A DNA stretch of 64,000 nt from Beijerinckiaceae bacterium. Its GTDB lineage: Bacteria; Pseudomonadota; Alphaproteobacteria; Rhizobiales; Beijerinckiaceae. The notes under the pieces were generated by a model. It did no database searches. It had not been told where the DNA came from and saw only the letters and a program-made list of their open reading frames with translations. The stretch is from NCBI GenBank assembly GCA_947452455.1, contig CANGBX010000001.1, positions 496,001 through 560,000 on the forward strand, read 5' to 3'. Positions 9,631 through 36,225 of the stretch are shown here, one piece after another. Positions within the stretch are counted from its first letter, which is position 1. Each line of letters starts with the position of its first letter. The translations under genes were made by a program, and so were the position numbers.

Positions 9631-9972
9631 TCGGGTCCCCTCCCTGATCTTTTTATGAGGTCAGTATAGACGGGATAGGGCTGATGGGAATGCGCTCTGG
9701 CCGCGTTCTAGCTGGAAAAGGGTGAACAATGGGCCCGGTCATTGGTCCGGCCGTGCCGATGGCTGGGCGCGGGCCATTGGCGGGTGCTTGGCGGGCTATC
9801 CCTGCCTCATTGAAAAGGGTCGATGGCCGCTCAAGCCTCCGCCTGTTGGATTGTTGATCGGCATTGAACTTCTGGGCTGGTTATTCGTTCCACTTCTGAA
9901 CGCCTTATTGCGGATAAGGTTTCAGCGTGGGTTGGGCTATGCCCATGTCATGTCCTCCAGCGGAGAGTGCAT
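9631..9972. other. Intergenic region without a convincing gene
   Basis: This 342-base gap separates the divergent cyclodeaminase operon and lipoprotein gene and must hold both promoters. I see no convincing promoter pair, RNA gene or repeat. A frame opening at 9722 runs on across the lipoprotein gene but has no ribosome site and no family resemblance. Confidence 0.6.
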
Positions 9973-10278
9973 ATGTCGCCCAGATTGTTCGTCGGCTGTT
10001 TGGTCTGCCTTGCGCTCACCGCCTGCGCGGGGCGCATCGATCGGACCCGCCCTTTATCCTATGCGGCGAGCAATGCTCAAAGCTCGCCCGCTCTGGATTC
10101 ATATGTCTGGGCGCGCAATGACGGGCGCCGCATGTCTGAAAATCCATCGCTGCTGCGGCAAGGGCAAAAAGACCAAGCCGAATGTCGCAACGGGGCCAGC
10201 TTGAGCAGTGCCATGAACCGGAATGTCTTTACGCAATGTATGCAAAGGCGTGGCTATTCCATGCGTCTGGCGGGCTAA
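9973..10278 (+). CDS. Small lipoprotein of unknown function
   Basis: The 101-residue product begins with a signal peptide ending in the lipobox Leu-Thr-Ala-Cys18, so it is probably lipidated and held in a membrane facing the periplasm. The mature part contains two Cys (near CRNGAS and CMQRRGY), the spacing seen in many short rhizobial lipoproteins with a conserved QCMxxRGY end. The ATG at 9973 has GGAGAG 5 bases upstream; a GTG two codons earlier is also possible. No enzyme domain is visible, and neighbours give no clue. Confidence 0.75.
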   Translation: MSPRLFVGCLVCLALTACAGRIDRTRPLSYAASNAQSSPALDSYVWARNDGRRMSENPSLLRQGQKDQAECRNGASLSSAMNRNVFTQCMQRRGYSMRLAG

Positions 10279-10402
10279 TTTTTCTTGTTATCTTCTTTGC
10301 GAGTGAAGCCGCTGGGACCCCTTGTCGGTTGCGGACAGATGTTTCATAAACTCTTTTTTTGGCGCATCTGTCGCGCGGTTTTTCATTTTGAATGGTTTGC
10401 CT

Positions 10403-11137
10403 TTGACAATTGTTATGTCCATTTCCGTTCAAGACGGCGTCGTGCTTGCATCTGACAGCGCTGTAGAGCATCGCGGCCAAGTCTATTATTCGGCTGAAAA
10501 GACGATGCAGCTCATCAAAGGCGTGCCGATTGGCGTGCTGGTGGCAGGTGATGCAGCGATCAACAACAAAGCATTCATCGATGTGCTGAAAGATTTTGGC
10601 GCACAGAACCGCAATGGCCACGGTTCCTTCGACAAACATAATTACACGGTCGAGGCTGTGGTGCGCCGCTTGCAAGATTATCTGCGCTCCATGGCGCCGA
10701 TGCAGGTTGCCAAGCTGCGCTCGACTTTGATCATCGGCGGTTATTCGTCGGGCGCGCATACGCCGGAAGTCTGGAACCTCGTTTTCGATTCCAGCGACGG
10801 GGTGAGTGTCTCGCAGATTTGGTCACCGACCGAATACGGCATTTGCTGGGAAGGTGCAGGCGAATGTCTGCATCGTCTAATGAATGATGATTTCAGCATG
10901 GATGGCTCGAATGACGCCTCAAGCCCGACTTTGGTAACGCCGGGCATGCCGATCCATGATGCGGTCGCGCTGACACGCTTTCTCATGGAGGCCACGATTG
11001 GCTATGTGCGCTTTCGTGTGGATTTGCAGCCCAAGACAGTGGGCGGCCCGATTGATATGGCGGTCATCACACGCCACGAAGGCTTTCGCTGGGTTCAGCG
11101 CAAGAAGCTGACCAGCGCCAATTCGGGAAAGCGTTAG
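10403..11137 (+). CDS. Proteasome-like Ntn-hydrolase, TTG start predicted
   Basis: The sequence TIVMSISVQDGVVLASDS aligns with the N-terminus of proteasome beta/HslV/Anbu-type Ntn hydrolases. Counting its first Thr as residue 1, Gly11 and Asp17 fall at the expected positions and the Lys of SAEKTMQL is at 32, close to the catalytic Lys33; VLVAGDAAINN matches the following strand and helix. If translation begins at TTG 10403, removal of Met exposes this Thr as the nucleophile, giving a 244-residue precursor. A more upstream TTG at 10322 would add 27 unconserved residues, while the first ATG (10415) would delete the Thr. No strong ribosome site precedes any of them. Self-compartmentalising peptidase activity is inferred; the substrate is unknown. 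Confidence 0.65.
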   Translation: MTIVMSISVQDGVVLASDSAVEHRGQVYYSAEKTMQLIKGVPIGVLVAGDAAINNKAFIDVLKDFGAQNRNGHGSFDKHNYTVEAVVRRLQDYLRSMAPMQVAKLRSTLIIGGYSSGAHTPEVWNLVFDSSDGVSVSQIWSPTEYGICWEGAGECLHRLMNDDFSMDGSNDASSPTLVTPGMPIHDAVALTRFLMEATIGYVRFRVDLQPKTVGGPIDMAVITRHEGFRWVQRKKLTSANSGKR

Positions 11138-11304
11138 CCTTCTTTGCGCGGCCGCCACAGCGGCCATGTGATGACGGAAAAACCGACCGCCAACGAGCCG
11201 TTCAGAAAAATCTCGCCCGCCGAGCCGCCCTCATAGACGCCCCAGAGAATGCCGAGCAGGAAGGCAACGCCCATGCCGACGGCCAGTCGTGTATCGCGGA
11301 TCAT
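11134..11304 (-). CDS. Small membrane protein of unknown function
   Basis: The 56-residue product starts MIRDTRLAVGM and has two hydrophobic segments (about 7-22 and 30-46) with a basic end, PLWRPRKEG. The ATG at 11304 lies 5 bases after the gph stop and has a GAAGAGA ribosome site, so it is probably translated from the gph message. Its end overlaps the convergent Ntn-hydrolase gene by 4 bases. I recognise no family. Confidence 0.6.
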   Translation of the reverse strand: MIRDTRLAVGMGVAFLLGILWGVYEGGSAGEIFLNGSLAVGFSVITWPLWRPRKEG

Positions 11305-11309
11305 TCTCT

Positions 11310-12014
11310 TCAAACCCTCGTTTTTTCGATCTTTGAGACAGCATCCCACAATTGATCGAAATGGCTGATCACGATGTCTGGAGCAAAAGTCGAGACATGC
11401 TGGTCGGTGTAGCCGAAATCAACCGCAACGACCGGGATGCCTGCGGCTTTGGCCGTATCGATATCGGTGCGTGAATCGCCCACCATAATCGTGTTGGCAG
11501 GCTGCCCGCCCGCCATTTCGATGGTCATGAGCAACATGCGTGGGTCCGGCTTGGCAATGTTGCCGCCATTGTCTTTGAACGTGTCCTGACCGCAGATCGC
11601 CTTGAAGCGATGGTCGATCTTGAGCGCCTTCAAAAGCTTTTTGGAGGGCACTTCGACCTTGTTGGTGCAGACAGCAAAGCTGAAGCCCGCGGCTTCAAAA
11701 CGGTCGAGTGCTGCCACCACGCCGTCATAGAGATGGCTGACATCGGCAATATGGGCTTCGTAATGGGCCAGAAAATCTGCAAAGAGCTGGTCGAGCTTGG
11801 CGCCCTCGATGCTGCGCCCTTCGGCGGCAAAGCCGCGCTGGATCAATGCGCGGGCGCCAGCCCCCACCATCTGCCGGGCCTCGGCCAGGGTAATGGGCGC
11901 CAGCCCCTCACGCGCCAAAATGACATTGAGCGTGTTGGTGAGGTCGCCAGCCGTCTCGGCCAAAGTTCCATCGAGGTCGAAAACCAGCATTGGGGCATGG
12001 GATGTTTGGGTCAT
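11310..12014 (-). CDS. gph: HAD-family phosphatase, phosphoglycolate phosphatase-like
   Basis: The 234-residue protein has all HAD motifs: DLDGT (nucleophile Asp13, acid Asp15), the Thr of CTNK (about 116), Lys of IAKPDP, and VGDSRTDIDTA (Asp pair for Mg). The helical cap domain between about 20 and 90 is of the C1 type found in phosphoglycolate phosphatases, which detoxify 2-phosphoglycolate arising from DNA repair or oxygenase activity. It is divergent from rpiA across a 109-base gap. Other HAD substrates such as phosphonoacetaldehyde or beta-phosphoglucose are less likely from the motifs but cannot be excluded. Confidence 0.85.
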   Translation of the reverse strand: MTQTSHAPMLVFDLDGTLAETAGDLTNTLNVILAREGLAPITLAEARQMVGAGARALIQRGFAAEGRSIEGAKLDQLFADFLAHYEAHIADVSHLYDGVVAALDRFEAAGFSFAVCTNKVEVPSKKLLKALKIDHRFKAICGQDTFKDNGGNIAKPDPRMLLMTIEMAGGQPANTIMVGDSRTDIDTAKAAGIPVVAVDFGYTDQHVSTFAPDIVISHFDQLWDAVSKIEKTRV

Positions 12015-27401: not shown

Positions 27402-29300
27402 ATGACGCCGCACCACAAGTCACAACAGCAATCCTCCTTTTCCTCCATCAAGGCCGATGCCTCGCTTGCCACCACGGTGAAGCATTTGTGGCCCTATATC
27501 TGGCCGAGTGAACGGACCGATTTGAAGTTCCGCGTCTTGGGCGCTTTGGCCCTGCTGCTGGTGGCAAAATTCGTCACCATTGCCGTGCCCTATTCGTTCA
27601 AATGGGCGACCGACCTCATCACCGATCCCAAAGCCGATGTGCCGCTGCCCGCCATCATCGCCGGGCCTGTGGCGGTTGTGGTTGTCTACACATTGCTGCG
27701 CATCTTCATGCAGTTCTTCACGCAGGCGCGTGATGCTCTGTTTGCGGCGGTCGCCATGCATGCGGTGCGCCGCATTGCCAATGAGCTGTTTGTTCATCTG
27801 CATCAGCTGTCGTTGCGCTTCCATCTGGAGCGCAAGACGGGCGGCCTGACACGCGTATTGGAGCGCGGCCGCGAAGCCATCCAGCAGATTGTGCGCATGT
27901 CCATGCTGACGGGCGTGCCGACGGTCGTCGAATTCGCGCTGATCCTCGCCGTCTTCTTCTTTGAATTTGATTGGCGTTACGCGCTGGCCGTGATCGTGAT
28001 GATCTTGGCCTATTTGAAATTCACCACCATTGCGACCGATTGGCGTATTTCCATCCGTCGCAACATGAATGAGAGCGATACGGACGCCAATACCAAGGCC
28101 ATCGACTCGCTTCTGAATTATGAAACGGTGAAATATTTCGGCGCCGAAAAGCGCGAAGCAGAACGCTATGATCGCTCGATGGAGAAATACGAGCGCAACA
28201 GCGTCTCGAGTTATGTCTCGCTTTCCGTGCTGAACTCCGGCCAAGGCCTCATCTTCTCGCTCGGTCTGATGACGGTCATGATCCTCTGCATCATGGGGAT
28301 CCGCGACGGTCGCAACACGATCGGCGATTTCGTGCTGGTCAATGCGATGATGATCCAGCTCTACCAACCGTTGAATTTCATGGGCATGGTCTATCGCGAA
28401 ATCAAACAGGCGGTGATCGACATTGAAATGATGTTCACAATTTTGGGTCAGCACCCCGAGATCAAGGACAAGCCTGATGCAGCCCCGCTCAAAGTGGCAG
28501 CAGGTCATGTCAAATTCGACAATGTGCATTTCGCCTATGACCCGAAGCGCGCCATTCTCAAAGGCATCAGTTTTGAAGTGCCCGCTGGCAAGACGCTCGC
28601 CATTGTGGGTCCCTCGGGCGCTGGCAAATCGACGATCTCGCGTCTGCTGTTCCGCTTTTATGATCTGCAATCGGGCCATATCACCATTGATGGCCAAGAG
28701 ATCTCATCTGTGACACAGGACTCTTTGCGCGATGCCATTGGCATGGTTCCGCAGGATACGGTGCTGTTCAATGACACGATTGCCTATAACATTCGCTATG
28801 GCCGCTGGAATGCGAGCGAAGAAGAAGTGGTTGAGGCGGCGAAAGCAGCGCAGATCGATGATTTCATCCGCTCCGTGCCCAATGGCTATAAGGCGCAGGT
28901 GGGTGAGCGCGGCTTGAAATTGTCGGGCGGCGAAAAGCAGCGTGTTGCCATTGCCCGCACGATTTTGAAAGGCCCGCCAATCCTCATTCTGGATGAAGCG
29001 ACATCGGCGCTTGATTCCTTTACCGAGCGCGAAATTCAAACTGCACTCGACCGCGTGTCGAAGGGCCGCACGACACTTGTCATCGCGCATCGCCTTTCGA
29101 CCATTGTGAATGCGGATGAAATTCTCGTTCTCGACAAGGGCGAGATTGTCGAGCGCGGTCGCCATGAAGAATTGCTGGCGCTGGGCGGCGTCTACAAGGC
29201 GATGTGGAACCGCCAGCGCGAAGTCGATGCGGCGCAAGAAGCTTTGCGTCGTGCCGCCGAGGAAGAAGGCAAAAGCGCGCGCGTGGAAATCGAGGGTTAA
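27402..29300 (+). CDS. ATM1/HMT1-type ABC exporter (permease fused to ATPase)
   Basis: The 632-residue half transporter has a six-helix membrane domain (about 45-335) and a nucleotide-binding domain with Walker A GPSGAGKST, Q-loop MVPQDTVLF, signature LSGGEKQR and Walker B ILILDEATSALD. The membrane part, with ERGREAIQQIVRM and SLLNYETVKYFGAEKREAERYD, is characteristic of the ATM1 group, which exports glutathione-bound sulfur or heavy-metal conjugates and affects Fe-S and metal homeostasis. It would act as a homodimer. ATG 27402 fits the family start. Its end overlaps the convergent transglutaminase gene by 4 bases. Confidence 0.92.
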   Translation: MTPHHKSQQQSSFSSIKADASLATTVKHLWPYIWPSERTDLKFRVLGALALLLVAKFVTIAVPYSFKWATDLITDPKADVPLPAIIAGPVAVVVVYTLLRIFMQFFTQARDALFAAVAMHAVRRIANELFVHLHQLSLRFHLERKTGGLTRVLERGREAIQQIVRMSMLTGVPTVVEFALILAVFFFEFDWRYALAVIVMILAYLKFTTIATDWRISIRRNMNESDTDANTKAIDSLLNYETVKYFGAEKREAERYDRSMEKYERNSVSSYVSLSVLNSGQGLIFSLGLMTVMILCIMGIRDGRNTIGDFVLVNAMMIQLYQPLNFMGMVYREIKQAVIDIEMMFTILGQHPEIKDKPDAAPLKVAAGHVKFDNVHFAYDPKRAILKGISFEVPAGKTLAIVGPSGAGKSTISRLLFRFYDLQSGHITIDGQEISSVTQDSLRDAIGMVPQDTVLFNDTIAYNIRYGRWNASEEEVVEAAKAAQIDDFIRSVPNGYKAQVGERGLKLSGGEKQRVAIARTILKGPPILILDEATSALDSFTEREIQTALDRVSKGRTTLVIAHRLSTIVNADEILVLDKGEIVERGRHEELLALGGVYKAMWNRQREVDAAQEALRRAAEEEGKSARVEIEG

Positions 29301-30217
29301 ACCAATTCGACGGCGCGTGGCGGGGGATCACTCGCCATGCGCTGGCTTGGTGCCACATCCACACTCACAGTCAGCGTCTGATTGCCCGATGCGAGAATGA
29401 CGCCATCAATCGGCGACACATCGGCATAATCACGACCACGCGCAATGACGATATGATCATTGCCTGCCATGAGCGCATTGGTCGGATCGAAATCGAGCCA
29501 GCCGAAGGCTTCTCCGCACCAAAGCGAGACCCAGGCATGCGAGGCATCTGCGCCCACAAGGCGCGGTTTGCCGGCCGGCGGGATTGTGCGGATATAGCCA
29601 GAGACATAGGCAGCCGGCAGGCCAAGGCCGCGCAAAGCTGCAATCATAATATGCGCGAAATCCTGACAGACACCGCCGCGTGATTCAAAAGCTTCCGACA
29701 AAGGTGTCGAGACAGCGGTTGCTTTGGGATCATATTTGAAGTCTGCGCGGATGCGCGTCATCAATTCGGCAGCCGCCTCGACAATCGGGCGTCCCGTCTG
29801 AAAACTTTCCTTCGCATAGGCAGTCGCTGGTCCATGCATGGGCACAAGGCGGCTCGGATAGAGAAAATGTGCGGGTGCCGTGGGCCCGAGGACAGAAGAT
29901 GCGAAAGCTTTTTGGCGCACATCTTCCCAATCGGGCGTCAGCTCGCCTGCGGGCGCGGGGCGCCGCTCGACTTCCACGCGCGACATGGCGGTGATGCGCA
30001 ATTCGCGGTGCGTGCTCGCAATCGTTACATGCGCAATGCGCGTGCCGAAAAAATCCGTACGCTGGTTGACGGAAGCAGGCTGTGGCGCCACTTCCAAGCC
30101 GCTGTCAAAGACGCGCTGCCCGTCATCATCAGCAGGCAAGAGTCGCAAAGTGCAGCGCGCGGCCGAGACCGGCGCATCATAGCGATAGGTCGTGACGTGA
30201 CGAATGTCGTAGATCAT
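29297..30217 (-). CDS. Transglutaminase-like protein (third gene of the ATP-grasp/alpha-E operon)
   Basis: The 306-residue protein has the bacterial transglutaminase N-terminal beta domain (about 1-85, starting [14 protein letters not shown]) and the papain-like core with the triad Cys184 (GGVCQDF), His228 (SHAWVSL) and Asp244 (DFDPTN). No signal peptide is seen, so it is probably cytoplasmic. Such proteins hydrolyse or transfer amide bonds. Its ATG overlaps the stop of the ATP-grasp/alpha-E gene by 4 bases. It is always found with these partners in many proteobacteria, implying a joint peptide-modification task; no product is known. Confidence 0.92.
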   Translation of the reverse strand: MIYDIRHVTTYRYDAPVSAARCTLRLLPADDDGQRVFDSGLEVAPQPASVNQRTDFFGTRIAHVTIASTHRELRITAMSRVEVERRPAPAGELTPDWEDVRQKAFASSVLGPTAPAHFLYPSRLVPMHGPATAYAKESFQTGRPIVEAAAELMTRIRADFKYDPKATAVSTPLSEAFESRGGVCQDFAHIMIAALRGLGLPAAYVSGYIRTIPPAGKPRLVGADASHAWVSLWCGEAFGWLDFDPTNALMAGNDHIVIARGRDYADVSPIDGVILASGNQTLTVSVDVAPSQRMASDPPPRAVELV

Positions 30218-32748
30218 GCAAGGTCCATTTCGCGGCCCTGCCGCGTGGCGTTCGGTCCTTGCAGGAAGTAACGCTGCGCAACCGCTTCAGCCAGCGCCAT
30301 CAGGCGCTGTTCGACCGCCAGAATTTTCTGCTGATCGAGGTGGTCGGCATCTTCCACTTTCAAATCGGAGACGATTTTGAGCGCCAAGCGGCTTGGCGCT
30401 TCCATAATACCGTCCCCGTTTAGCAAGGGCAGAGTGGCGAGATGTTCATTGATGCGCTCGCTCTGGAAGGCGACGGAACGCGGGTTGAATGTGTCGAGCA
30501 GAACCATATCGCGCACGGGTGCCAGCGCCACACCGACCAGATAGCGCGAGCGATAGGTGATTTGCGAGTCGATGAGATCAAGCAACACGTCGAGATTTTC
30601 GGCTGTCGCATCCTTGTCGGCAAAAGTGCGGGCAAAGCGGCAGGTGTTGATGGCGCGCTCCACGCGACGCCCCATATCGAGGAAGCGCCAGCCAGCAACG
30701 CGATTGGTGTTTTCCTGAAAGAGGCCAGACAGTGCGGCAATGACGCGCAAGGCTTCATCGGCTGTGTCAAAAGCTTCCGCTTCCGGCATTTGCTTTACAT
30801 CATCATGTGCCAGGCTCACATCGAGCGCGCGCAGCAAATGCCACGCATCCGGTGACAGACGCTCGCGGATCACACCGGCCGCACGGTGGGCAGCAGAAGC
30901 AATCGCGCTCGCTGAGCCAACATTTTTTTTGCCATGCAAAGCGGCGGCAGCAATCTCAGCGGTTGTGGCTTCAGCCATTTCAGGCGGCACAGCACCCCAT
31001 GCGCTCAACATGCGCGCCAAGCGGAAGGTCGATTGTCGCCCGCCACCTGTCATGGAATCAGGGTCCATCATGCGCGCACACAGGCAACGCACGATGCGCA
31101 AAGTGGCTTCCACGCGCTCCATATAGCGACCGAGCCAGAAGAGATTGTCAGCCGCGCGGCTTGGCAGATTGCCGAGCAGACGGCGAATTTTCACTGTGTC
31201 GCTGGAGGGCAGCAGCGTCGTCATTTCGACCGGCTTGTCTGCGAGCACCCACACATCTGCCGATTGCACGCCTTCGCCCATCGAGACGGCGCGTGCATCA
31301 CTCACCGCCGAGATGCGGCAGAATCCGCCGGGCATGATCTCCCAACCTTTTTCGGTCGCAGCCGCATAAACGCGCAAGACAAAGGGGCGCGGTGTCAGCT
31401 TGCCATTTTCCCAAACAGGCGTGGTGGAGAGCTGCACCATTTCCTGCCCGACATAATCGACCGCGCGCTGAGAGAGATTATCCATCAGCTGTGTGCGTGT
31501 TGCCCCATCAAGGTCAGCGCCTATCAGATTGCGCATGCCCTTCATGCCGGGAAGCGTTTCGGAAAAGGCACCAGAGACGACCAGCTCATCGAGCCTGCTC
31601 ATCACTTCATTGCGCGCATCTTCCTGCCCGCACCACCAGGTTGCGATATTGGGCAATTGCAAATCTTGACCCATCAGCCTTTTGCAAAGGGCAGGCATGA
31701 AGGCCAGCAATGCGCGCGATTCCACAAGGCCCGCACCCGGCATATTGGCAACCGTCACGGTGCCATTGCGAATGGCTTGTATAAGGCCCGGCACACCGAG
31801 GCGCGAGGCGGCATTGGCTTCGAGCGGGTCGCACCAATCAGCATCGACGCGGCGCCAGATGACATCGGCGCGCTTGAGGCCGGCAATGGTGCGCACATGC
31901 ACCATGCCGTCTTGCACGGTGAGGTCATCACCTTCGACCAGCAGAATGCCGAGATAGCGCGCGAGATAGGCCTGTTCAAAATAGGTCTGGCTATAGGGGC
32001 CGGGCGTGAGCAGGCAGATGCGTGGCTCGGGGCGCGTGGCGGAGTCGGTGAGGCCTTTGCGGAATTCACGGAAGAAGGGCGCGAGGCGCTCCACATTCAT
32101 ATCGCGATAGAGATTTGGAAAAGCGCGCGAGAGCACGAGGCGGTTTTCCAGCGCATTGCCTGTGCCCGATGGCGCTTGCGCACGATCACCCAAAACCCAC
32201 CAGCGCCCATCAGGTCCGCGGCCGATGTCGCAAGCGTAAAGTCGCAACCAGCGATCACCGGGTGGCTTGACGCCTTGCATGGGCCGCATGAAATCGGCGC
32301 TGCCTGTGACGGCCGCAGCAGGCAACGCGCCTTCACTGACGAGTTTTCCCTCGCCATAAACATCGGCGAGAATGCGCTCCATCAATTCCGCGCGCTGTGT
32401 CACGCCTTGGGCAATCGCTTTCCAATCGCGTTCGGGGATGAGCAATGGCACATGCGAGAGCGGCCAAGAGCGTTCATTGGTTTCGCCATAGACGCGATAG
32501 GAAATGCCAAGGTCGCGGATGTGCCGATCCGCAGCGGCAAAGCGGCGATCAATCTGTTCATCTTCAATGCGCGACAAGGCATTGAGGAAGGACTGCCAAT
32601 GGGCGCGCGGCTGTCCATCCCGATCGATGAATTCATCGGGGATTCCGGGCAGAGCTTGATAGCCCGCGGTCCAGTTTTCGACGCGCTTTGCCGATCCGCC
32701 GTTTTGACGGCGGTCGTTCTTGCGCGACGCGGCGCTCTCGCTAGGCAA
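30214..32748 (-). CDS. Fusion of circularly permuted ATP-grasp (type 2) and alpha-E domains
   Basis: The 844-residue protein carries an N-terminal circularly permuted ATP-grasp ligase (about 30-490; [50 protein letters not shown]) and a C-terminal alpha-E helical domain (about 530-835; [20 protein letters not shown]). In many genomes these are two adjacent genes; here they are one. The ligase is expected to form an amide or peptide bond with ATP. The start is TTG at 32748 with a strong GAGGAGG 5 bases upstream, and it overlaps the DUF2126 gene stop by 8 bases. It forms one operon with the transglutaminases on both sides. Confidence 0.93.
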
Positions 32749-35700
32749 GTGTCCTCCTCAAATCCAGCGTCAGCGGAAATTCCGCCGAGGGGCCTTCTTG
32801 TCGCACATTCATTGTGCCGGGAGTATGACCTTGATTCTGGAAGCGGGCCAAGCGCCTAGCCTGTGCTTCATAGGAATTGACGGGGAAAGTATCGTAATTG
32901 CGCCCGCCCGGATGGGCGACATGATAGACGAAGCCGCCAAGCGAGCGCCCGTTCCATGTATCAACAAGATCAAATGTCAGCGGTGCATGCACCGGCATGA
33001 CCGGATGGAGCCCCGAGGCCGGTTGCCAGGCTTTGAATCGTACGCCTGCAACGGCTTCATTGTTGCGGCCAGTGGATGTCATCGGCAAAGGTCGGCCATT
33101 GCAGGTGATGAGATGGCGGCCTGCAACAAAGCCTTGTGCCAGCATTTCAACGCGTTCGACGGACGAATCGACATAGCGCACCGTTCCGCCAATCGCGCCT
33201 TCTTCGCCCATCACATGCCACGGCTCCAAAGCTTGACGCAGCGTCATGCTCACGCCGCCATGTTCCGCATCGCCGTAGAAGGGGAAGCGGAATTCGCGCT
33301 GGGCTTCGAACCAGAGCGGATCAAAATCATATCCCGCGCCGCGCAGATCCGAGAGCACGCCTGAAAAATCCTCCCAGACAAAATGCGGCAGCATGAAACG
33401 ATCATGCAAAGCCGTGCCCCAACGCACGAAGGAGCCTTGCTGCGGCTCACGCCAGAACCACGCGATCAGCGCGCGCAAGAGAAGTTGTTGCGCCAGCGAC
33501 ATGCGCGCATCGGGCGGCATTTCAAACGAGCGGAATTCGATGAGACCGAGGCGGCCTGTCGGGCCATCGGGTGAAAAGAGTTTGTCGATGCAGATTTCCG
33601 CACGGTGCGTATTGCCCGTCACATCGACAAGCAGATTGCGGAAGAGCCGATCAACCAGCCATAGCGGCGTTTTCCCCTGGTCAGGCGAAGGCACTTGCGA
33701 GAGCGCAATTTCCAATTCGTAGAGGCTATCATGGCGGCCTTCATCAATGCGCGGCGCTTGGCTGGTGGGGCCAATGAAGAGACCGGAGAAAAGATAAGAG
33801 AGCGAGGGATGGCGCTGCCAATAAAGCACCAAGCTCTTCAAGAGATCAGGACGACGCAGAAAGGGAGAATCCATCGGCGTGGCGCCACCCAGCACCACGT
33901 GATTGCCGCCACCCGTGCCCGTGTGGCGACCGTCAGTCAGATATTTGTCGGTGCCAAGCCGTGTCTGGCGCGCTTCTTCATAAAGCGTGACTGTATTGTT
34001 GACTGCATCGCGCCAATTGGCTGCGGGATGTACATTGACTTCAATCACGCCGGGGTCTGGCGTGACTTTAATCACTTCGATGCGCGGATCTTGTGGCGGT
34101 GGATAGCCCTCGATATGTACGGGCACATTGCTGGCTTCAGCCGCCAGTTCAATGACAGCCAGAAGTTCGATGTAATCTTCGAGCCGCTCCACGGGCGGCA
34201 TGAAGACATGCAGCACGCCATCGCGTGGCTCAATGGCGAGTGCTGTGCGCACCTCGCCCTCAACAGCCACTTGCTCATTTTGAGTCTGACGCGTCGGGTC
34301 GTTGGCTGTCTCGCTATAAGTGCGACGGATCTCGTTGGGATCGGGCAGCGGGCCGCGCGTATCGGTTGGGTCTTGCGGCATGATGTAGGGATAGGACGAG
34401 GCTGGCACATAGGGCAGCGCGTTCAGTGGCAAGCGGAAGCCTGCGGGTGAATCGCCGGGTGCCAGAAACAATTTGCCGCGTCGCAGCGCCCATTTTTCGC
34501 TCTTCCAGCGTGGCGCTTTGGCGCTTGCGGCATTCCATCTTTGCACGGGCAGAACATAGCCTGTGGGATGGGAAAGCCCGCGTTCAAACACGCGCACCAT
34601 GCGCGCACGTGCTTCCGGATCTTCGATTTTGGGATCGCTCGGATCTACATTCACCGGCAGTTCGGCTTCTTTCAAAATCCAATGCGCGGGATCTTCATAA
34701 GCGGGCAGGGCGCAATCGGTTGGAACGCCCAAGCGTTGCGCTGTCTCATGTGCCAGTCGCTCGGCATCTGCAATCAAAGCAATCTTGTCTTTAAAGCGCC
34801 CTTTGCCGCCTTCATCTGCAATGAGGTCTGGATTGGTCCAGATTGGCTTGCCATCCTTGCGCCAGTAAAGCGCAAAAGCCCAGCGCGGCAGGCTTTCACC
34901 CGGATACCATTTGCCTTGTCCGTAATGCAGAAAGCCACCGGGCGCGAAACGTTCACGCAGGCGACGGATCAATGTATCGGCGTAAAGACGCTTGGTCGGA
35001 CCAACAGCAGCAGTGTTCCATTCAGCCGATTGAAAATCATCAATCGAGACAAAAGTCGGCTCGCCGCCCATGGTAAGGCGCACATCTTGCTGCGTGAGAT
35101 CATCATCTACACGATCTCCAAGCTTGTCGAGTTTCGCCCATGCTTCATCGGAAAAAGGCAGCGTCACGCGTGGTTGTTCGCGGATGCGGTCCACTTGCAT
35201 GTGAAAGGCAAATTCACATTGGGCCGGCTCAACAAGGCCTGAAACCGGTGCGGCAGAGCGATAATGCGGCGTGGCTGCGAGCGGCAAATGGCCTTCACCA
35301 CACATGAGACCCGATGTTGCATCAAGGCCGATCCAGCCAGCGCCCGGCACATAAATCTCGGCCCATGCGTGAAGATCGGTGAAATCATGATCCGTACCTT
35401 TGGGCCCATCGACAGGATCAACATCGGCTTTCAGCTGGATGAGATAGCCCGAGACGAAACGCGCAGCCAATCCCAAACGGCGTGCGAGATGCACCAGAAG
35501 CCAAGCGGAATCGCGGCAGGAGCCTGAGCCGAGCGTCAGTGTTTCTTCCGGCGTCTGTACGCCGGGCTCCATACGGATCACATATTTGATGGCTTGATGC
35601 AGCTGCATATTGAGCGCGACGAGAAAATCCACTGTGCGCATTTTCGTGCGCGCAATCTGCGCCAGATAGGCTTCGAATTTTGCACCCTGCGGTTCGGTGA

Positions 35701-36055
35701 CAAGATAGGGCGCGAGTTCAATTGCCTCTTCGCTCGTATAAGCGAAGGGAAATTCTTCGGCATGCGTTTCGATGAAGAAATCGAAGGGATTGATCACCGA
35801 CATGTCGGCGGTGAGATCGACTTCAATTTTGAACTGCGTGGCTTTTTCCGCAAACACATGGCGTGAGAGCCAATTGCCATGCGGGTCTTGCTGCCAATTC
35901 ACGAAATGATCGGCCGGCGAGACTTTCAGCGAATAGGAGAGGATTTTGGTGCGGCAATGGGGAGCCGGGCGCAGCCGGATCACCTGGGGCCCCAGAGCCA
36001 CCGGCCGGTCATAGCTGTAGGAAGTCACGTGGTGGAGGGCGACGCGGATCGACAC
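32741..36055 (-). CDS. Large transglutaminase/DUF2126 protein
   Basis: This protein, about 1104 residues, begins with the transglutaminase N-terminal domain ([17 protein letters not shown]), then a cysteine-peptidase-like core with Cys180 ([10 protein letters not shown]), His229 (DLHAWAEIY) and Asp245 (GLDATSGL), and from about 280 onwards the long DUF2126 region, ending [15 protein letters not shown]. The GTG at 36055 is chosen because the family starts at this sequence; the longer frame from 36172 adds 39 unconserved residues. No good ribosome site is seen. It is the first gene of the operon with the ATP-grasp/alpha-E fusion and the second transglutaminase. DUF2126 is structurally uncharacterised to my knowledge and its role is unknown. 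Confidence 0.9.
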
Positions 36056-36157: not shown

Positions 36158-36225
36158 GTTGAATTGCTTCAACTTTCATCCAGCTGCCAAAAGCCGCGCC
36201 ATCGCCTGCCCAAGTCTTTGGCAGC
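36158..36225. promoter_or_regulatory. Two inverted repeats in the DUF2126/psd divergent region
   Basis: GTTGAA-TTGC-TTCAAC (36158-36173) and the longer-range pair GCTGCCAAA (36183-36191) / TTTGGCAGC (36217-36225) lie in the 262-base region between the divergent DUF2126 and psd genes. They could be operators or transcript hairpins for either side. No regulator gene is adjacent. Confidence 0.35.

Follow-up and report, generated by a model that had tools for sequence, protein, structure and literature searches.

Here we describe a three-gene operon on the minus strand, running from 36055 to 29297, of a 64,000-nucleotide stretch of DNA (hereafter the window) from a Beijerinckiaceae bacterium (GenBank assembly GCA_947452455.1, contig CANGBX010000001.1, positions 496,001 to 560,000; genome completeness 95.6%). 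The operon encodes a transglutaminase-like (TG) domain joined to DUF2126, a circularly permuted ATP-grasp domain fused to an alpha-E domain, and a second TG-like protein. It belongs to a type of amide-bond enzyme system that is widespread in bacteria and already known as a prediction, as a first-pass annotation made from the sequence alone had proposed. The fused ATP-grasp, however, which that annotation took for a ligase, is probably not an active one.

Gene content and domains of the operon

The three genes overlap by 8 bases (32741-32748) and 4 bases (30214-30217), in agreement with the first-pass annotation, and the GTG start that it chose for the first gene is supported by 19 aligned homologues; an alternative in-frame TTG lies upstream, at 36172. 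Pfam assigns Bact_transglu_N, Transglut_core and DUF2126 (1338 bits) to the first protein, CP_ATPgrasp_2 (476 bits), CP_ATPgrasp_1 (308) and Alpha-E (224) to the second, and Bact_transglu_N and Transglut_core to the third. All of these domains score far above the Pfam cut-off, which together with the recurrence of the gene set excludes chance. None of the three proteins was assigned to a family by NCBIfam.

Both TG domains contain the Cys-His-Asp triad of the transglutaminase-like superfamily (PF01841), and the claim that these triads are intact holds across homologues. The triad of the first protein is invariant in 19/19 aligned rows, and in the second TG, C184 and H227 are found in 70/70 rows and D244 in 69/70, with 11 of 80 loci that had no usable second TG excluded. 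These two domains are likely to be catalytic parts of the operon, and so is DUF2126, likely a carboxylate-amine ligase of the glutamine synthetase (GS) fold. DUF2126 had been bounded at about residues 280-1100, which fits its Pfam limits (Table 1), but had been treated as a blank; in fact the family was placed in the carboxylate-amine ligase/GS fold in 2008 (PMC2588565), Pfam names it a "putative amidoligase", and our fold search points the same way, with GmaS and the GS homologue 4hpp among its matches. Seven residues, E332, E649, E672, H719, R818, E840 and R842, are invariant in alignments of 19 and 44 rows and are proposed, from mapping to GS by eye, to be the GS-type metal, ATP and phosphate residues. 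Compared with GS, gamma-glutamylmethylamide synthetase and the Pup ligase PafA, DUF2126 has an extra C-terminal domain of ~170 residues and large insertions, and no profile-level match was found.

Table 1. Positions of the operon features in the window and of the unfused genes elsewhere in the source genome
Feature	Position	Strand	Basis
TG-DUF2126 protein, 1104 aa (amino acids) from GTG	32741..36055	-	Pfam, 19-homologue alignment, fold search, PMC2588565
TG-like domain 1, ~residues 1-285, triad C180/H229/D245	35201..36055	-	Pfam, alignment
DUF2126 domain, residues 277-1100 from GTG	32756..35227	-	Pfam, alignments of 19 and 44 rows
ATP-grasp~alpha-E fusion, 844 aa, TTG start	30214..32748	-	Pfam, structure model
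Circularly permuted ATP-grasp domain, residues 101-479, putatively degenerate	31312..32448	-	Pfam, fold search, alignment
G187-D188-R189, aligned to unfused E-D-N (metal ligands E162, N164): E to G, N to R	32182..32190	-	alignment
Residues 390-410, position of the unfused K...GGYG ATP-binding loop; lysine and GGYG absent	31519..31581	-	alignment
Alpha-E domain, residues 528-828, all-helical	30265..31167	-	Pfam, model
Second TG-like protein, 306 aa, triad C184/H227/D244	29297..30217	-	Pfam, alignment
Unfused alpha-E/ATP-grasp pair, contig C10	L003 8958-9959 and 9959-11410 (ATP-grasp 9959-11410)		
Sigma-54-type site, 10/11, 49 bases upstream of the unfused ATP-grasp	L003 11444-11459	-	site scoring

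The fused ATP-grasp has probably lost its ATP and metal site

The structure model of the fusion is of good quality (predicted local distance difference test 88.2, predicted template modelling score 0.85), and in fold searches its ATP-grasp half resembles 3n6x and the glutathione and glutathionylspermidine synthetases, as expected of this type of ligase; the alpha-E domain gave no confident match. By eye only, two segments of the alpha-E domain, WLGRYMER and DMGRRVER, look alike and may reflect an internal repeat.

ATP-grasp and alpha-E each occur twice in the source genome: once fused, in the window, and once as separate genes side by side on another contig (Table 1). We aligned 100 fused ATP-grasp rows (two duplicates) with 45 unfused rows (one duplicate), nearly all from one phylum. 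All 45 unfused proteins have D149, E162, N164, K370 and K470 as well as the GGYG loop, and the source genome's own unfused copy has D149, E162, N164, K370 and GGYG. In contrast, the fused copies keep E162 in 2/100, N164 in 0/100 and the E-x-N pair in 0/100, K370 in 10/100, GGxG in 1/100 and K470 in 24/100, with varied replacements at E162, K370 and the loop. The window fusion has D174, G187 and R189 at the D...E-x-N positions, and neither the Gly-rich loop nor its lysine. Since these ATP and metal residues of the unfused paralogues are absent, the fusion is unlikely to be an ATP-driven ligase, and an ATP assay on the fusion protein may well be negative.

The lost residues align with the E-x-N of glutathionylspermidine synthetase, in an alignment that is weak in itself; the E. 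coli enzyme GspSA has D318, E330 and N332 in its sequence, which we take to be its metal/phosphate residues. Alanine changes at the Cp1B equivalents D141, E163 and N165 led to loss or weakening of activity (PMC12568646). Relative to glutathionylspermidine synthetase, (homo)glutathione synthetase, YgiC/YjfC and Cp1B, the E-x-N and Gly-rich loop are absent in the fused copy and present in the unfused one.

Fused and unfused ATP-grasps separate on a single branch with support 100 in a tree that took in 50 of the 100 fused rows. Within the same 17 genomes, the fused domain is less conserved than the unfused one in 136/136 pairs, with median identities of 0.371 and 0.657 respectively and 0.600 for TG-DUF2126; alpha-E diverges quickly whether fused or not (0.336 and 0.371). 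Of 119 columns invariant in the unfused proteins, 64 are lost and 55 kept in the fused ones, the latter including R432 and N313 (each 100/100) and R277 (99/100); R189 is found in 88/100. We conclude from these alignments that the window ATP-grasp appears to be a degenerate paralogue in which catalytic constraint has relaxed and substrate-side residues have been kept.

The same retained columns, the loop lysine that survives in 10/100 and the retention of the domain itself in 71/80 relatives could also be read as signs of a ligase that is still active with a changed chemistry, in which Arg would stand in for the Asn metal ligand and a different loop for GGYG, which would make the operon self-sufficient. 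We regard this as unlikely, given the varied replacements at E162, K370 and the loop, the near-complete loss of E-x-N and GGxG, the faster divergence of the fused copy and the persistence of an unfused alpha-E in every DUF2126 genome surveyed (below). Most likely, the fusion is a non-catalytic partner, substrate-holding or regulatory, of the active-looking unfused pair.

The operon belongs to a larger gene set

The closest DUF2126 relatives of the window locus are in Beijerinckiaceae genomes (74% identity). Among 80 fetched relatives, the best-kept of 592 confirmed and alphaproteobacterial by title, the ATP-grasp~alpha-E fusion adjoins DUF2126 in 71, one of which is truncated by a contig end. 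The first-pass annotation had seen the joining of ligase and alpha-E in one protein as a clue that they work as a unit; the fusion is real, but it is no clue special to the source genome because fusion beside DUF2126 is the rule. The flanks of the 80 loci have no broadly conserved partner beyond the three genes, with only 4 families in at least 8 loci.

To set the operon in a wider context we sampled 200 genomes of the phylum, from 110 genera, and found DUF2126 in 63 genomes and 32 genera. The alpha-E counts from this survey, here and below, are among the matches listed. An unfused alpha-E, a class defined by score and by the length of the frame (score decided for six in long open frames; G126, G141 and G149, which have alpha-E and no DUF2126, were left unclassed as to fusion), is present in 63/63 DUF2126 genomes. 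At least two alpha-E genes occur in 57/63 genomes with DUF2126 versus 6/49 alpha-E genomes without it, and DUF2126 is found in 0/88 genomes that have no alpha-E. Outside Alphaproteobacteria, the unfused alpha-E lies within 15 kilobases (kb) of DUF2126 in 35/41 genomes, versus 1/22 inside, which suggests that the gene set has come apart in that class.

We chose 20 of the 36 genomes with such clusters, in which DUF2126 and unfused alpha-E are both present by selection. These contain an unfused ATP-grasp in 20/20, the fusion in 17/20 and a separate TG in 19/20, in many orders and orientations; the constant content despite reshuffled order argues for a joint function of the five-gene set. By this co-occurrence and clustering, the unfused ATP-grasp/alpha-E pair belongs to the system, and the operon is not the whole of it.

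Several individual loci were also observed. In Enterobacter roggenkampii, a 90.7-kb IncFII plasmid (NZ_CP116251.1; L119 5739-14930) has all five genes in one orientation, flanked by IS6-family transposase genes, and a Caballeronia plasmid also has both halves together. In Pseudooceanicola pacificus (L094 4411-14808) the halves are adjacent and divergent, with TG, alpha-E and ATP-grasp on one strand and a window-type operon on the other. The Acidithiobacillus caldus megaplasmid (NZ_CP005987.1; L122 7977-13147) has a DUF2126 annotated without a transglutaminase domain, plus an unfused ATP-grasp and alpha-E, with genes annotated as glnL, amidase and APC permease nearby. An alpha-E match lies in a stretch without annotation on a 1.04-megabase record labelled as a Klebsiella pneumoniae plasmid (NZ_CP079635.1; L174 6001-6918). 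In the source genome, the unfused pair adjoins, by reading of the open reading frames (ORFs), thiC-like and shikimate dehydrogenase-like ORFs, and no TG or Anbu gene adjoins it. The window operon is oriented away from psd- and pss-like genes and is convergent with an ATP-binding cassette exporter gene on the opposite strand, whose end overlaps that of the last operon gene by 4 bases (29297-29300).

Nitrogen control and sigma-54-type sites

Nitrogen control has been reported for relatives of these genes. NtrC dependence was found in Burkholderia cenocepacia for I35_5080 to I35_5083 (changes of -8.2, -9.4, -9.4 and -6.0), whose products are DUF404/407, DUF403 and a pair of transglutaminase-like proteins, the second of which is described as "large" (PMC5491218). 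In Pseudomonas putida, nitrate raised PP_2685 by log2 4.44 and PP_2688 by log2 3.99; the PP_2685 promoter, one of two tested, was nonetheless nitrogen-indifferent in a reporter (PMC8050072). Furthermore, relatives of the system correlate with urea-use domains in sea metagenomes (PMC3597751), and COG3484 is among predicted sigma-54 regulons (PMC12316311).

Because of this published control, we scored sigma-54-type sites, out of 11, upstream of the genes. Upstream of the unfused ATP-grasp, scores of at least 10 were found in 5/19 clusters (0.1 expected) and of at least 9 in 9/19 (0.7 expected), one of the 20 clusters having been dropped for want of upstream DNA. In an independent set of 21 alphaproteobacterial unfused ATP-grasp genes, 5 score 10 or 11 (0.15 expected), and 0/200 shuffles match the observed counts of the unfused ATP-grasp genes. 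Upstream of the fused gene, sites of at least 10 were found in 0/17 and 0/9, and TG-DUF2126 shows a weaker excess (1/20 at 10 or above, 3/20 at 9 or above). The source genome, which encodes sigma-54, has a high-scoring site before its unfused ATP-grasp (Table 1); the best score upstream of the window operon is 6/11. The presence of candidate sites at the unfused pair and not at the window operon is in line with the published nitrogen-limitation control of unfused genes.

This regulation could instead point to catabolic nitrogen scavenging, in which the transglutaminase folds would hydrolyse amides or isopeptides and the ligase would make gamma-glutamyl-type intermediates, as in amine gamma-glutamylation routes. 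The four nitrogen-related reports above would all fit such a role, as would the fold matches of DUF2126 to GmaS and 4hpp. We consider it improbable, however, since the flanks of the 80 loci, with their 4 families in at least 8 loci, have no conserved transporter or catabolic gene and the PP_2685 promoter did not respond to nitrogen.

Relation to proteasome-fold genes and other amide-bond systems

The operon shares ATP-grasp, alpha-E and transglutaminase-like families with the Anbu operon and with the peptide-amidoligase systems predicted by Iyer, Burroughs and Aravind (2008, 2009). Unlike in those systems, no Anbu was seen here, the ATP-grasp is fused to alpha-E and probably degenerate, and an active-looking pair lies elsewhere. 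The only PF00227 match in the 95.6% complete source genome adjoins an HslU-like ORF and on that ground was read as HslV. Release of phosphate from ATP by the ATP-grasp of a Yersinia Anbu operon (PMC6376114) fits an active unfused copy.

At least two proteasome-fold genes, a proxy for Anbu, occur in 44/112 genomes with alpha-E versus 2/88 without, and the second such gene is not specially tied to DUF2126 (21/63 genomes with it versus 23/49 alpha-E genomes without). The first of these associations would suit a Pup- or ubiquitin-like tagging system, with the ligases coupling a peptide to proteins and a peptidase taking it off again. Such a function was proposed for the wider system by Iyer et al. 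2009, as cited in PMC6376114, and DUF2126 and the Pup ligase fall in one superfamily (PMC2588565). Nevertheless, small-peptide metabolite synthesis was preferred for the family, for lack of a tag gene (PMC2588565), the lone PF00227 protein of the source genome reads as HslV, and the operon, whose genes overlap, has no internal space for a tag gene, no systematic search of the surroundings for a small one having been made. Tagging is therefore a rather unlikely account.

The Pseudomonas RimK/RimB and RloABC systems combine an ATP-grasp with transglutaminase-like logic as well, but with another ATP-grasp family, a membrane-bound inactive transglutaminase and an aspartic protease; neither alpha-E nor DUF2126 is named for them in the accessible part of the source (PMC12239564). 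Rv2569c is another transglutaminase-like protein. It has been reported as a protease (PMC11081392) and was given no weight here. Our literature search covered open-licence papers, with subscription papers and Iyer 2009 outside its scope. Within it we found no isolated product of these systems, as the first-pass annotation had stated, no paper on an inactive ATP-grasp of this kind, and no description of a degenerate fused ATP-grasp, of its separation from the unfused pair, or of sigma-54-type sites confined to that pair.

A proposed split system

On balance we favour, with somewhat better than even confidence, a split, mainly cytosolic amide-bond system, of which the window operon would be the second half, comprising a ligase of the GS fold, the two transglutaminase-fold domains and the non-catalytic fusion, completed by the active pair elsewhere. 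In nitrogen shortage, sigma-54 would turn on a starter module consisting of the active ATP-grasp and the stand-alone alpha-E. This pair would make an acyl phosphate from a carboxylate and join it to an amine, as the glutathione and glutathionylspermidine synthetases do; the DUF2126 enzyme would then add a further amide, and the transglutaminase-fold domains would hydrolyse or transfer the amide. The acyl-phosphate chemistry is expected of both ligase types because of their families. We rate the degeneracy of the fused ATP-grasp and the five-gene unit above these biochemical steps: the gene set, the motif loss, the co-occurrence and clustering and the sigma-54-type site can be read in the sequences, and from them we infer the partner role, the order and direction of the steps, the substrates, hydrolysis as against transfer, and the nitrogen purpose.

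A bolder and distinctly speculative version would be a multi-subunit amide machine of nitrogen starvation, which makes or dismantles an undescribed isopeptide compound or protein mark. In it, a duplicated ATP-grasp would have turned into a pseudo-ligase joined to alpha-E and would serve as a dedicated partner of the active ATP-grasp, the GS-fold ligase and the two transglutaminases. Sigma-54 would switch the starter pair, and the second half would be expressed by other means.

Assays of the fusion would mislead if its ATP-grasp is a pseudo-ligase; the unfused copy, and DUF2126 with it, would then be the enzyme to assay when nitrogen is limiting. By showing which proteins to express together, the five-gene set makes the function of these genes and of Anbu, a question that dates from 2008-2009, directly testable.
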